Translations under genes and position numbers: made by a program | Notes under the pieces: generated by a model | What the model saw: the letters and a program-made list of their open reading frames with translations, nothing else | Databases searched by the model: none | Told to the model about the DNA's origin: nothing | Shown: in pieces, positions 1,210 to 4,101 of the stretch | How the letters are laid out: the number at the start of each line of letters is the position of its first letter | How positions within the stretch are numbered: position 1 is the first letter of the stretch | Source: Actinomycetota bacterium | GTDB taxonomy: Bacteria > Actinomycetota > Acidimicrobiia > Acidimicrobiales > Ilumatobacteraceae | Reading direction: 5' to 3' | NCBI GenBank assembly: GCA_009704065.1 | Contig: WLEX01000023.1 | Span: 1-10,421 of the forward strand | DNA: 10,421 bases

Positions 1210-2058
1210 ATGGAACCACACCACTTTTTCACGGCACAGCGTGTCCTTATTGTTGCTGGGAAAGGCGGCGTAGGGAAATCGACCCTAGCGACCTCCCTTG
1301 CCTACCTGTCTGCCCGCTCCGGAATGCGCACGCTCTTGGTGTCCCTCGACGCGCCGTCGACCCCCATCCCGCCCCATGATTTGCTGGAACAGATCACGGT
1401 TAGCCCTGGTCGCGCCCTCGCCGATTACCTAGCCACCAAGGGTTTGGGGCTGTTATCCCGCCAATTGGCCAAGTCGGGAATCATGGAATTGGTGGCTACC
1501 ACGGCCCCTGGCCTCGATGACCTTTTGGTCCTCGGGCGCATCAAAGCCTTCGAACAGGAATTGCGAGCCGATGTGATCATTGTCGATGGTCCGGCCGCGG
1601 GTCACGCCCTCGATCTGGTGAGGGCACCTGCTCAATTGAAGCGAGCGATTGGCAATGGCCCCATCAGTTCTCAAGCAGATGAAGTAATCGCCATGTTCGC
1701 CGATGGCACCCGATGCAAAGTGATGTTGGTGACCACCCCTGCCATTACCCCCGTCACTGAAACCTGTGAAGCAGCAGAAGAATTACGCGATCAAGCCGGC
1801 GTCGCACTTGCCCCCATTGTGGTGAATAAATACGAAGTTCTTGTTCCCACCATTGATACAACATCACTCAGTCCCAATTCGCGCGATGCACTGCAATACC
1901 TCGCACAACGCGGTGTTGCCCAAACAGATGCTCTCGGAGTGTTGTCCGATTCGCTCGAACTTCCGCAACTTGTTACCAAGCGACATCGTCTAACAGGCGA
2001 AGAACTTGTCGTTGCACTTGCAGAAGATTTAGAAGAAGCAATAAAGGCAATGCCATGA
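1210..2058 (+). CDS. Get3/ArsA-like ATPase, first of a tandem pair (Rv3679-type)
   Basis: A 282-residue P-loop ATPase of the ArsA/Get3 branch of the SIMIBI class. Visible motifs: Walker A GKGGVGKST (17-25), including the 'signature' lysine K18 that in Get3 reaches across the dimer interface; a divergent switch I region, SLDAPSTP (45-52), in place of the usual DPAHS; TTAPGLDDLLVLGRIKAF (97-114), a stretch characteristic of the family; switch II-like DGPAAGHALDL (126-136, compare Get3 DTAPTGHTLRL); and VVNKYEVLVP (204-213) at the position of the Asn-containing nucleotide loop. The ATG at 1210 is chosen because longer in-frame readings run antisense into nfeD. No Shine-Dalgarno site precedes it. 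Its stop overlaps the next ATPase start by 4 nt (ATGA), so the two are translationally coupled. Mycobacterial Rv3679/Rv3680 form a similar adjacent pair and have been described as Get3 homologues. Arsenite transport is unlikely: no arsenic genes or Cys metal site are visible. The substrate is unknown. Confidence 0.85.
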   Translation: MEPHHFFTAQRVLIVAGKGGVGKSTLATSLAYLSARSGMRTLLVSLDAPSTPIPPHDLLEQITVSPGRALADYLATKGLGLLSRQLAKSGIMELVATTAPGLDDLLVLGRIKAFEQELRADVIIVDGPAAGHALDLVRAPAQLKRAIGNGPISSQADEVIAMFADGTRCKVMLVTTPAITPVTETCEAAEELRDQAGVALAPIVVNKYEVLVPTIDTTSLSPNSRDALQYLAQRGVAQTDALGVLSDSLELPQLVTKRHRLTGEELVVALAEDLEEAIKAMP

Positions 2059-3164
2059 GCGAACAACGAATCATCGAGATATGTCAGAGTGCGAAAATCA
2101 TCGTCACGTGTGGAACTGGTGGCGTAGGAAAAACAAGTGTTGCTGCAGCACTTGGTCTCGAAGCAGCTCTTAAGGGTCGTCGCGTTGTTGTTATTACCAT
2201 CGACCCTGCCCGTCGCCTTGCCGATGCCATTGGTCTTGGTGAAGGAAAAGGTAATGAATTACAGCGTGTTCCGCTCGATGCATCGGGTGAACTGTGGGTC
2301 ACCATGCTCGATGTGCAAGAAACCTTTGACTCATTGGTACGTGATACTTCACCAAGCGAGGAACGCACTGCTGAAGTGATGAACAACTCGTTCTATCGAA
2401 GCTTGTCGCGCAGCTTGTCAGGCACTCGCGATTACATGGCGGCTGAACGTTTGCATAGTTTGCACAATGATCCACGATTCGACTTGGTCATTGTCGACAC
2501 TCCTCCATCACGTAACGCGCTCGACTTTCTTGAATCACCAGAACGTCTCGCCCGATTCTTACGCCACCCCATTGTGAAATTTCTGGTGGCACCAAGCCGC
2601 GGTGGATTACGTTTCGCCAATGCCGCTATGCAGCCGGTGCTCAAAGCCATCTCTATGGTGGTCGGTGGCGATGCACTCACCGGTGCTGCATCGTTTCTCA
2701 AAGTCTTCGACGGAATGGAAGCAGAATTTTCTCGACGTGCACTAATCGTGGCAAAAGCACTGCGCAGTGATGCAAGCAACTTTGTAATTGTCACTGCACC
2801 GTCAGCCGATGCACTGACCGAAGCCGATCATTTCGTATCCGAGCTATCTCGACTAGGAATTTCTTTGCAACTCATCGTGGCTAATCGCATGCCACCTCGC
2901 TTCGGAACTCTCACAGCAACCGAAGAACAAGCCGCAGCAGCCGCAACCTCTGGCGATCTTGCCCTTGCGCACGACCTCATTGCAGGCCTATGTGAAGACG
3001 CCGATGCGGCGGATGCATCCATTGCATCATTCGTTCAGCGCACAACAGGGCGTTTCCCTCAGGTGGCCACCGCTCATGCAACCGAATTGCCAACCGACAT
3101 CCACGACATGGCTTCAATCCGCGCCCTCGCTGAACAACTCGCAGCCTCACCATCTCGGCAGTAA
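2055..3164 (+). CDS. Get3/ArsA-like ATPase, second of a tandem pair (Rv3680-type)
   Basis: A 369-residue ATPase starting at ATG 2055, inside the stop codon of the preceding ATPase gene. Motifs: Walker A CGTGGVGKTS (19-28), in which the Get3 signature lysine position is a threonine (GTGGVGKT, not GKGGVGKT); canonical switch I TIDPARRLADAIGL (48-61); an actinobacterial insert NSFYRSLSRSLSGTRDYMAA (111-130); switch II VDTPPSRNALDFL (147-159); and a helical segment rich in Gly/Ala/Phe (180-225) where Get3 proteins bind hydrophobic clients. VANRMPP (275-281) matches the late nucleotide-binding loop. The C-terminus (282-369) is Ala-rich and probably helical. The motif set matches the Rv3680 family, whose members sit beside an Rv3679-type partner. 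Together the two genes probably encode a cytosolic heteromeric ATPase. Targeting or chaperoning of membrane proteins is inferred from Get3 homology, not shown here. Confidence 0.86.
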   Translation: MSEQRIIEICQSAKIIVTCGTGGVGKTSVAAALGLEAALKGRRVVVITIDPARRLADAIGLGEGKGNELQRVPLDASGELWVTMLDVQETFDSLVRDTSPSEERTAEVMNNSFYRSLSRSLSGTRDYMAAERLHSLHNDPRFDLVIVDTPPSRNALDFLESPERLARFLRHPIVKFLVAPSRGGLRFANAAMQPVLKAISMVVGGDALTGAASFLKVFDGMEAEFSRRALIVAKALRSDASNFVIVTAPSADALTEADHFVSELSRLGISLQLIVANRMPPRFGTLTATEEQAAAAATSGDLALAHDLIAGLCEDADAADASIASFVQRTTGRFPQVATAHATELPTDIHDMASIRALAEQLAASPSRQ

Positions 3165-3167
3165 AGT
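3162..3167 (+). promoter_or_regulatory. Possible leaderless -10 element (TAAAGT) for the receiver gene
   Basis: TAAAGT fits the actinobacterial TAnnnT -10 pattern and lies exactly 6 nt before the GTG at 3174, the spacing expected if transcription starts at the start codon. Its first three bases are the stop codon of the upstream ATPase gene. No Shine-Dalgarno site is present. No convincing -35 was identified, and simple readthrough from the ATPase genes would also express the receiver gene. Confidence 0.35.
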
Positions 3168-3173
3168 CAGACC

Positions 3174-3647
3174 GTGCATATTTTGATCGCCACAGACGCC
3201 CAATGGGTCCTCGACGAGGTGCAAGCTGCTCTTGGCTCGCCCTCCACCACAATCCAAGTAGTGACCAACGGTCGCCTTGTCGCGCCTGCCGTGGCCGAAC
3301 GCACACCCGATATCGCCATTCTCGATCTGCAAGTGGGAAGTATGGGCGGCATGGCCATCACCATGGACCTTCGTCTCGATTACTCAAGCGGTGCATTGCC
3401 TCACATTCCCGTCCTCATGCTTCTCGATCGCACGGCCGATGTTCACATGGCACGTCGTAGTGGCGCCGATGGTTGGATCATTAAGCCACTCGATGCATTG
3501 CGATTGCGCAAAGCCGTTACTGCCATTGCAGGCGGTGGTTGCTATGCCGAAGGCATTCCCGTTCCCCCAGAAGAAGTTGCTGAAGAAGTCGTCACGGAAA
3601 TTACCGCTGAAGCAACCGACGAGTCGCCTGTCGAAACCCTCGCCTAA
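3174..3647 (+). CDS. Stand-alone receiver-domain protein (atypical response regulator)
   Basis: 157 residues starting at GTG 3174, 9 nt after the second ATPase gene and on the same strand. The first about 120 residues fold-match a CheY-like receiver: beta-1 HILIATDA with D8 in the acidic pocket; a likely phospho-acceptor D51 in DIAILDLQVG; the beta-4 strand IPVLMLLDR (78-86); and the invariant lysine K104 in WIIKPLD. The Ser/Thr normally found at the end of beta-4 appears to be replaced (D85/R86), and only one acidic residue of the usual pair is obvious, so phosphorylation-driven switching may be weakened. There is no DNA-binding or enzymatic output domain. Instead residues 129-157 form an acidic, Pro/Glu/Thr-rich tail. 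No histidine kinase is encoded nearby. Position after two Get3-like ATPases suggests it acts with them, but no function can be assigned from sequence. Confidence 0.8.
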   Translation: MHILIATDAQWVLDEVQAALGSPSTTIQVVTNGRLVAPAVAERTPDIAILDLQVGSMGGMAITMDLRLDYSSGALPHIPVLMLLDRTADVHMARRSGADGWIIKPLDALRLRKAVTAIAGGGCYAEGIPVPPEEVAEEVVTEITAEATDESPVETLA

Positions 3648-3700
3648 ATTCCTTTCCTCTCCGACGCTTTTGTGGCACACATTGTCATTAGGGAAAAAGC

Positions 3701-3707
3701 AGAAGGA
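3701..3707 (+). promoter_or_regulatory. Shine-Dalgarno site deciding the GTG start of the tail-anchored protein
   Basis: AGAAGGA lies 7 nt before the GTG at 3715. It excludes the longer in-frame reading that extends back into the receiver gene. An ATG at 3708 is closer but out of frame and meets a stop after six codons. Confidence 0.65.
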
Positions 3708-3714
3708 ATGTACA

Positions 3715-4101
3715 GTGGCAATTACTGAATCAGAGCAGTTCGATTTAGACGCACTTCGGGAGATCATTGGAATGGATGTCGAAAGCCGCCTCAATGTGGT
3801 GGACACACGAATCGATACTCGGTTGCAATCTTTAGAGACAAAACTCGATGCGTTTGATGTCAAACACCAGAATGCTCTGAATCAACTTCAACTGGAAACG
3901 AATCACAAATTTGCTTTGGTTGATATTCGATTCGACACGATTGACCACCGATTCAATAGTCTCGAATCACACATACTCACAGCAATTGATGCCTCAATTG
4001 CAGATGCAATGGTTACTCAAATGAAATGGTCAGTCACCACAATGCTGACAATAGTTGCGCTCATTGTCTCTGCCGGTGTGGCAGCAATTAAATTCCTTTA
4101 G
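3715..4101 (+). CDS. Small coiled-coil protein with C-terminal membrane anchor (tail-anchored topology)
   Basis: 128 residues starting at GTG 3715, preceded by AGAAGGA. I do not recognise a named family. There is no signal peptide. Residues 10-95 are highly charged and probably helical, with hydrophobic residues spaced as in a coiled coil. Two related stretches, [20 protein letters not shown] (28-47) and [19 protein letters not shown] (69-87), look like an internal duplication (V-D-x-R-h-D ... R-h-x-S-L-E-x-h). Residues 106-126 ([20 protein letters not shown]) form the only membrane segment, followed by just Lys-Phe or so before the end. That leaves the coiled coil cytosolic and the extreme C-terminus in or across the membrane, which is the definition of a tail-anchored protein. 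The gene lies 67 nt after the receiver gene and on the same strand as the two Get3-like ATPases, which makes it a natural candidate client of those ATPases. That link is inference. Its stop codon overlaps the convergent asd stop by 3 nt. Confidence 0.72.

Follow-up and report, generated by a model that had tools for sequence, protein, structure and literature searches.

The 10,421-nt contig WLEX01000023.1 of an Ilumatobacteraceae bacterium (class Acidimicrobiia; assembly GCA_009704065.1), referred to below as the window, carries on its + strand a run of four genes (1210–4101) that encode two Get3/ArsA-like ATPases, a stand-alone receiver domain and a small coiled-coil protein. In our opinion, held at somewhat short of even confidence, this run represents the bagAB stress locus of actinobacteria in the form that it takes in Acidimicrobiia, followed by one unrelated gene. 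Within the class, bagAB is nearly always accompanied by the receiver; the converse does not hold. An initial annotation, made from the sequence alone, had delimited the run and named the ATPases and the receiver. Its coordinates proved exact, all four genes lie on the + strand with gaps of −4, 9 and 67 nt, and Pfam supports the assignments of the two ATPases (ArsA_ATPase, 1.2e-19 and 9.5e-29) and of the receiver (Response_reg, 1.7e-11). The window is one whole contig of a 1.41-Mb genome that is 71% complete.

The ATPases, BagA (1210–2058) and BagB (2055–3164), are, judged by their sequences, distantly orthologous to BagA/BagB (Rv3679/Rv3680, PDB 6bs3), a heterodimer already described, and the tandem bagA-bagB gene order is found in the window. 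Homology to Rv3679/Rv3680, which the initial annotation had supposed, is evident from the best NCBIfam model and from phmmer and profile matches to the 6bs3 chains. The BagA family profile aligns with 6bs3_A over nearly its full length (1.2e-45); when the window BagA is used alone, 5zme ranks above 6bs3_A. BagB matches 6bs3_B over residues 12–363 (phmmer, 1.5e-70), and its best NCBIfam model is BagB, at 315 bits. The nearest known structure to the predicted BagA is likewise BagA/BagB (PDB 6bs3–6bs5), in fold-neighbor listings that, for the BagA and receiver models alike, do not exclude unlisted families. It should be noted that the NCBIfam equivalog cut-offs (NF053622 and NF053621) are not reached, the scores being 89 of 400 bits for BagA and 315 of 521 bits for BagB; for this reason, the pair is classed as distant orthologues only and not as equivalogs.

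The two subunits differ in a characteristic way. The P-loop signature lysine is present in BagA of the window (GKGGVGKS) and in 146 of 155 loci scanned, and is absent from BagB, both in the window (GTGGVGKT) and in all 157 loci scanned. The CxxC zinc motif occurs in one of 155 BagA and in none of 157 BagB sequences at these loci; some Get3 proteins also lack it (PMC10248533). Neither ATPase reaches the TIGR00345 (Get3/TRC40) cut-off of 135 bits (55.3 and 87.6 bits). Two other assignments were considered and rejected. Long open frames that would fuse receiver and ATPase in some loci were taken as high-GC frame artefacts. TadZ/CpaE-type systems, which combine a receiver with a MinD-like ATPase, serve here as an analogy only; the actinobacterial CpaE-homologue model matches BagA weakly (30.9 of 154 bits).

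The third gene (3174–3647, +) encodes a receiver that scores 44.7 bits against PF00072, the cut-off being 30.2, and its model (pLDDT 93.8) has the receiver (βα)5 fold, which is backed by fold matches. The acceptor aspartate D51 and the lysine K104 are kept, as is D8. At the other key positions the first acidic residue is replaced by T7 and the Ser/Thr by L84, and the residue that follows (T+1) is an invariant aspartate, D85. These substitutions are typical of the family: among 46 distinct family-level receiver sequences, L84 stands in place of the threonine in 45 and T7 in place of the first acid in 44. R86, D46 and Q53 are conserved as well. On account of L84, T7 and D85, the reading of this protein as a typical two-component response regulator was set aside; by its residues, it is a pseudo-receiver. 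Pseudo-receivers such as FrzS can work through protein contacts (PMC12632262).

The evidence that joins the pseudo-receiver to bagAB comes from genome searches, whose counts are lower bounds, and from fetched loci. The locus sets share genomes (L068–L107, L153–L232 and L233–L257), and several were hand-picked and hence do not give frequencies. Strong matches to the receiver (at E 5e-40 or better, the next match being at 1e-11) were found in at least 54 of 61 family genomes, in 39 of which the receiver directly follows bagB, with 12–546 nt between matches; G059 has a bagB fragment ahead of the receiver, at a contig edge. Across the class, the receiver profile matches at least 110 of 148 sampled genomes, including at least 98 of 109 high-quality ones; among the matches listed, none is in f14, a much reduced family. 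The receiver lies downstream of bagB on the same strand in 63 of the 67 class genomes with a strong bagB (a match of at least 306 bits). This linkage spans 25 families, mostly at less than 130 nt, and supports the view that the receiver is not a chance neighbor of the ATPases. The exceptions are G012, in which the genes are unlinked, G152, in which they lie on different contigs, and G111 and G168, in which no receiver match was found.

Conserved chromosomal order alone might produce such a pattern if these were core genes with no joint function, held in a slowly rearranging region together with nfeD, asd and lysC. An asd gene does lie near the receiver in 25 of 41 loci by cluster 3 and in 14 of 26 by cluster 4. 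Nevertheless, the receiver–bagB link, with its 25 families, is more frequent than a nearby asd, and we consider an explanation by gene order alone unlikely.

Two side observations concern the sampled loci. One genome bin (G219) holds two similar nfeD-bagA-bagB-receiver contigs (L236 and L237), perhaps from two strains. In addition, a receiver of this Ilumatobacteraceae/Acidimicrobiia type occurs in ten records (L153, L154, L163, L165, L170, L174, L190, L199, L206 and L213) whose titles name Bifidobacterium breve, Ferrithrix thermotolerans, Acidimicrobium ferrooxidans or Acidobacteria, in most cases probably in error.

Several observations weigh against a receiver dedicated to BagAB. Of the 110 class genomes with a receiver, 45 lack a strong bagB, and G111 and G168 present the opposite case, a strong bagB with no receiver match. 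On a receiver tree of 61 rows the bagAB label changes nine times (8–9 in bootstrap, five of the changes being forced by well-supported branches), with two labels, those of G012 (genes unlinked) and G059 (contig edge), being artefacts. Key residues of the receiver are nearly unchanged where bagAB is absent, in a comparison whose "noBag" label also takes in loci whose flanks are short or cut by a contig end. Among 40 fetched Ilumatobacteraceae loci, in which bagAB-less cases were picked deliberately, 13 have no bagAB in the stretch from nfeD to the receiver. Since the receiver persists without adjacent bagAB, it has a role beyond BagAB. None of 20 hand-picked bagAB loci from other classes contains the receiver. 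Finally, in L265, L266 and L268 a STAS-type gene of opposite orientation (called by Pfam for L265 and by membership of the same cluster for the other two) separates bagB from the receiver. This gene explains some of the bagB–receiver gaps of 480–650 nt and means that bagB and the receiver do not always form one operon. As a separate observation, in bagAB-less loci of other families (L272–L276 and L280) the gene immediately after the receiver is of the CorC_HlyC/CBS type, an assignment made by domains for L274 and L276 and by cluster 7 for the rest; in L274 the two genes overlap by 4 nt.

The wider locus has the order whiB – nfeD-like – (divergent) bagA – bagB – receiver. The divergent NfeD-like gene, which was absent from the initial description of the locus, occupies positions 3–1157 of the − strand in the window; it is truncated at the left contig edge, and its first ATG lies at about 1157 in a frame that is open to 1232. 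This conserved neighbor of bagA was found in 39 of 41 family loci, the window included. Its product is an NfeD-like membrane protein (NfeD_membrane, 46 bits, above the cut-off), with an NfeD1b_N match of 28 bits, below the cut-off of 40. At the place of the serine-protease motif it has PSGSRAYG. The serine motif was seen neither here nor in any of the 33 aligned relatives, out of 68, that match the search pattern; the other 35 did not match the pattern at all. As this motif was not seen, we assume that the protein is not a protease; its sequence is possibly that of a dead protease domain joined to a membrane domain.

Of the class loci, 18 of 20 contain a WhiB-family gene (PF02467), compared with six of 40 Ilumatobacteraceae loci. 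In none of the fetched genus loci was whiB found beside nfeD, and the six WhiB matches of the window genome all lie on contigs other than the window. In the 20 hand-picked loci of other classes, bagAB has an NfeD-like neighbor in 11 and a WhiB gene in 14, the latter lying beyond nfeD or, in nine loci, convergent after bagB. Published work describes the convergent wblA-sco3578 (bagB) pair, conserved in Mycobacterium tuberculosis, Frankia and Thermobifida (PMC3765725), and a cluster in WhiB4 of M. tuberculosis that is sensitive to O2 and NO (PMC6282962). Outside the class, weaker relatives of the receiver immediately precede a WhiB gene in eight of 12 fetched loci, all eight from a single family, f37. 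The motif of these 12 relatives is LL[DE]R in eight, LLQR in one and LIER in two, the remaining one, L296, being an ordinary receiver. In L287 the acceptor aspartate is missing. Judged by sequences from few lineages, the tie of the receiver to WhiB may be older than its tie to BagAB.

The main rival explanation takes up these data: the receiver would serve WhiB, a redox transcription factor, and NfeD, an envelope protein, with bagAB as a co-regulated neighbor. The upstream position in eight of 12 outside-class loci, eight of the 12 relatives having LL[DE]R, is consistent with it, as are the hand-picked bagAB-less loci, where the receiver is still beside the nfeD-like gene (13 of 40 family loci) or next to whiB, whether nfeD is there or not (nine of 20 class loci). 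It is harder to reconcile with the position of the receiver after a strong bagB in 63 of 67 genomes, with the genus loci that have no whiB beside nfeD and with the window genome, in which WhiB is encoded elsewhere. We regard this explanation as a real possibility, albeit on the doubtful side.

The fourth gene (3715–4101, +) is a different matter. Its product has a single strongly hydrophobic stretch near the C-terminus (residues 107–125 of 128; mean Kyte-Doolittle value 2.3 across these 19 residues), so that its sequence can fairly be called "tail-anchored", and it reaches no Pfam cut-off. A search of 5.8 billion proteins returned three matches among 29 candidates, namely a 99% near-copy for which no outside source is listed and two at 80–85%. 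At least three matches were obtained in the 61 family genomes: the window itself and two weak matches, with E values of 1e-9 and 6e-4. These two, in G009 and G059, are coiled-coil matches on contigs other than that of the receiver. Among 32 genus genomes at least six matched at E 0.01, those other than the window being 23–35% identical coiled-coil matches in five genomes; they lie off the receiver contigs, except for one of two in G206, which is inside the gap between the receiver and asd. Thus, no orthologue was found in 31 congeners, most of whose genomes are incomplete (nine of the 32 reach 90% completeness with contamination of no more than 5%), which makes this absence weaker than it sounds.

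Readings of the receiver–asd gap are firmer than the absence of matches in incomplete genomes. In 24 of 25 readable congeneric loci (22 of the 25 loci L233–L257, together with L083–L085) the gap is at most about 175 nt between matches, and the fourth gene needs 387. In the congener G058, for example, whose BagB is 67% identical, bagA-bagB-receiver is followed by asd after 27 nt. The exception, G206 (L233:7215–7930), has in this gap a tRNA-Pro (cgg) and, behind it, a different coiled-coil ORF of 182 aa. This shows that the gap can take insertions and suggests that it is an insertion site. The GC content of the fourth gene is 43% vs 50–57% for ten other measured genes. From its sequence and surroundings, the gene is probably a lineage-specific insertion unrelated to the bagAB system. 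A simple scan showed no terminator-like site between the receiver and the fourth gene, and the two may be co-transcribed. Small proteins of the same architecture are encoded in other genomes, on contigs other than those of bagAB or the receiver. As a class (L138–L143, L036 and L037), such short proteins consist of an N-terminal region, a heptad-like coiled coil and a C-terminal hydrophobic segment, and are poorly conserved and dispersed; the short protein of L233/L143 reaches no Pfam cut-off.

These results bear on two roles that the tail-anchored protein might have had. The initial annotation had proposed it as a candidate native client of the ATPases, with the receiver as a candidate regulator. 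Its C-terminal hydrophobic segment with a 3-residue tail, its location on the same strand 67 nt past the receiver and the lack of a terminator-like site in between would suit a client. The initial annotation had itself named a lack of conservation next to the ATPases as grounds for refuting the idea, and this is what was seen within the genus: conserved linkage was recovered for the receiver and not for the small membrane gene, of which no orthologue was found beside bagAB in relatives and almost none anywhere, and for which 24 of 25 gaps are too short. The deviating GC content, the scattered proteins of like architecture, the failure of both ATPases to reach the Get3 family cut-off and their want of a conserved CxxC also argue against it. 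The gene was hence rejected as a conserved client, and we deem the client model highly improbable.

By analogy, the protein could instead be a species-specific membrane recruiter of the ATPase and the receiver, much as the operon partner BcsF is for BcsE-BcsR-BcsQ in cellulose secretion. Bcs is built from the same types of parts, namely a SIMIBI ATPase, a degenerate receiver and a small partner protein with a tail anchor (PMC7439463). Against a recruiter stand the failure to find an orthologue in 31 congeners and the unlike coiled-coil ORF of G206 at the same site, behind tRNA-Pro; we give this idea very little credence.

We return to the interpretation that we prefer, although with slightly less than even confidence: a stress-linked BagAB ATPase of Get3 type with a docking, phosphorylation-poor pseudo-receiver as a partner. 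From the observed gene identities, order, conservation and residue patterns, we infer that BagA and BagB would form an asymmetric Get3-type heterodimer in this species as well. Probably only one of its two composite ATP sites is fully equipped, because the signature lysine comes from BagA alone. What is known of the family, together with the locus, suggests that under redox or nitrosative stress the heterodimer may take charge of hydrophobic or damaged proteins of the envelope. As a regulatory subunit, the receiver would dock either on the ATPase itself or on the membrane or WhiB partners of the ATPase and, as its residues and linkage suggest, would signal through binding or abundance and not through a cognate kinase. 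A precedent of sorts is the BcsQ–BcsE pair, in which BcsE has a degenerate receiver and the contact to BcsQ is made by a GGDEF-like module (PMC7439463). A more far-reaching version, which we think rather unlikely, is that the LL-D/E-R pseudo-receivers constitute a new kinase-independent family, which in Acidimicrobiia would be a dedicated BagAB subunit coupling a WhiB-sensed redox/NO signal and the NfeD-like protein to client handling, and which without BagAB would serve another membrane partner, e.g., the CorC/HlyC protein of the adjacent gene.

The right border of the run is formed by a convergent gene for aspartate-semialdehyde dehydrogenase (asd; 4098–5159, −; Pfam Semialdhyde_dh and Semialdhyde_dhC), the 3′ end of which the fourth ORF overlaps by 4 nt. 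To the right of the fourth ORF lie this asd, a methyltransferase gene and lysC, followed on the + strand by genes for a cyclophilin-type isomerase, a 3-hydroxyacyl-CoA dehydrogenase and a leucyl/phenylalanyl-tRNA protein transferase. A simple scan for promoter and terminator signals gave nothing above shuffles.

What appears to be new here is the receiver in the bagAB locus; the ATPase pair and the WhiB link were known before. The initial annotation had not known such a system to be described. This holds in part: the ATPase pair and its wblA/whiB4 linkage are published (PMC10597346 and PMC3765725), and for a receiver in this locus no paper was found in a literature search that had most subscription papers outside its reach. 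A receiver partner retained in the greater part of the class, being one small soluble protein, offers a concrete and testable handle on the function and control of bacterial Get3-like ATPases. The whiB/nfeD/bagAB neighborhood in several classes points to redox or envelope stress and not to generic tail-anchored targeting. If the interpretation is true, this would be a natural case of a pseudo-receiver with partners readable from gene order.

Among known systems, BagA/BagB (Rv3679/Rv3680, PDB 6bs3–6bs5) is closest, with tandem Get3/ArsA-fold genes, near full-length alignment and the same split of the signature lysine, which is K in Rv3679 and A at that position in Rv3680. The window pair differs in scoring under the NCBIfam equivalog cut-offs and in the gene after bagB, which is the receiver here and a convergent WhiB gene in the known locus. 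Unlike Get3/TRC40 of eukaryotes and archaea, it has two different subunits, of which BagB is without the signature lysine, no conserved CxxC and scores under the TIGR00345 cut-off. The convergent wblA-sco3578 and whiB4-bagB pairs (PMC3765725) share a bagAB locus with a WhiB-family neighbor, whereas in Acidimicrobiia the co-directional pseudo-receiver fills that slot and whiB, if present, lies beyond nfeD. The likeness to the BcsE-BcsR-BcsQ-BcsF set of E. coli-like cellulose secretion, a SIMIBI ATPase and a degenerate receiver brought to the membrane, is an analogy and not sequence membership (PMC7439463); the window receiver lacks a GGDEF domain, and the window genes that were scanned include none for cellulose. 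Finally, FrzS-type pseudo-receivers and chain O of 8e9g/8e9i, which is the response-regulator subunit of complex I in mycobacteria, share the receiver fold with the window protein, which is set apart by its LL-D-R motif with an aspartate at T+1 and by its linkage to bagAB, whiB and nfeD.

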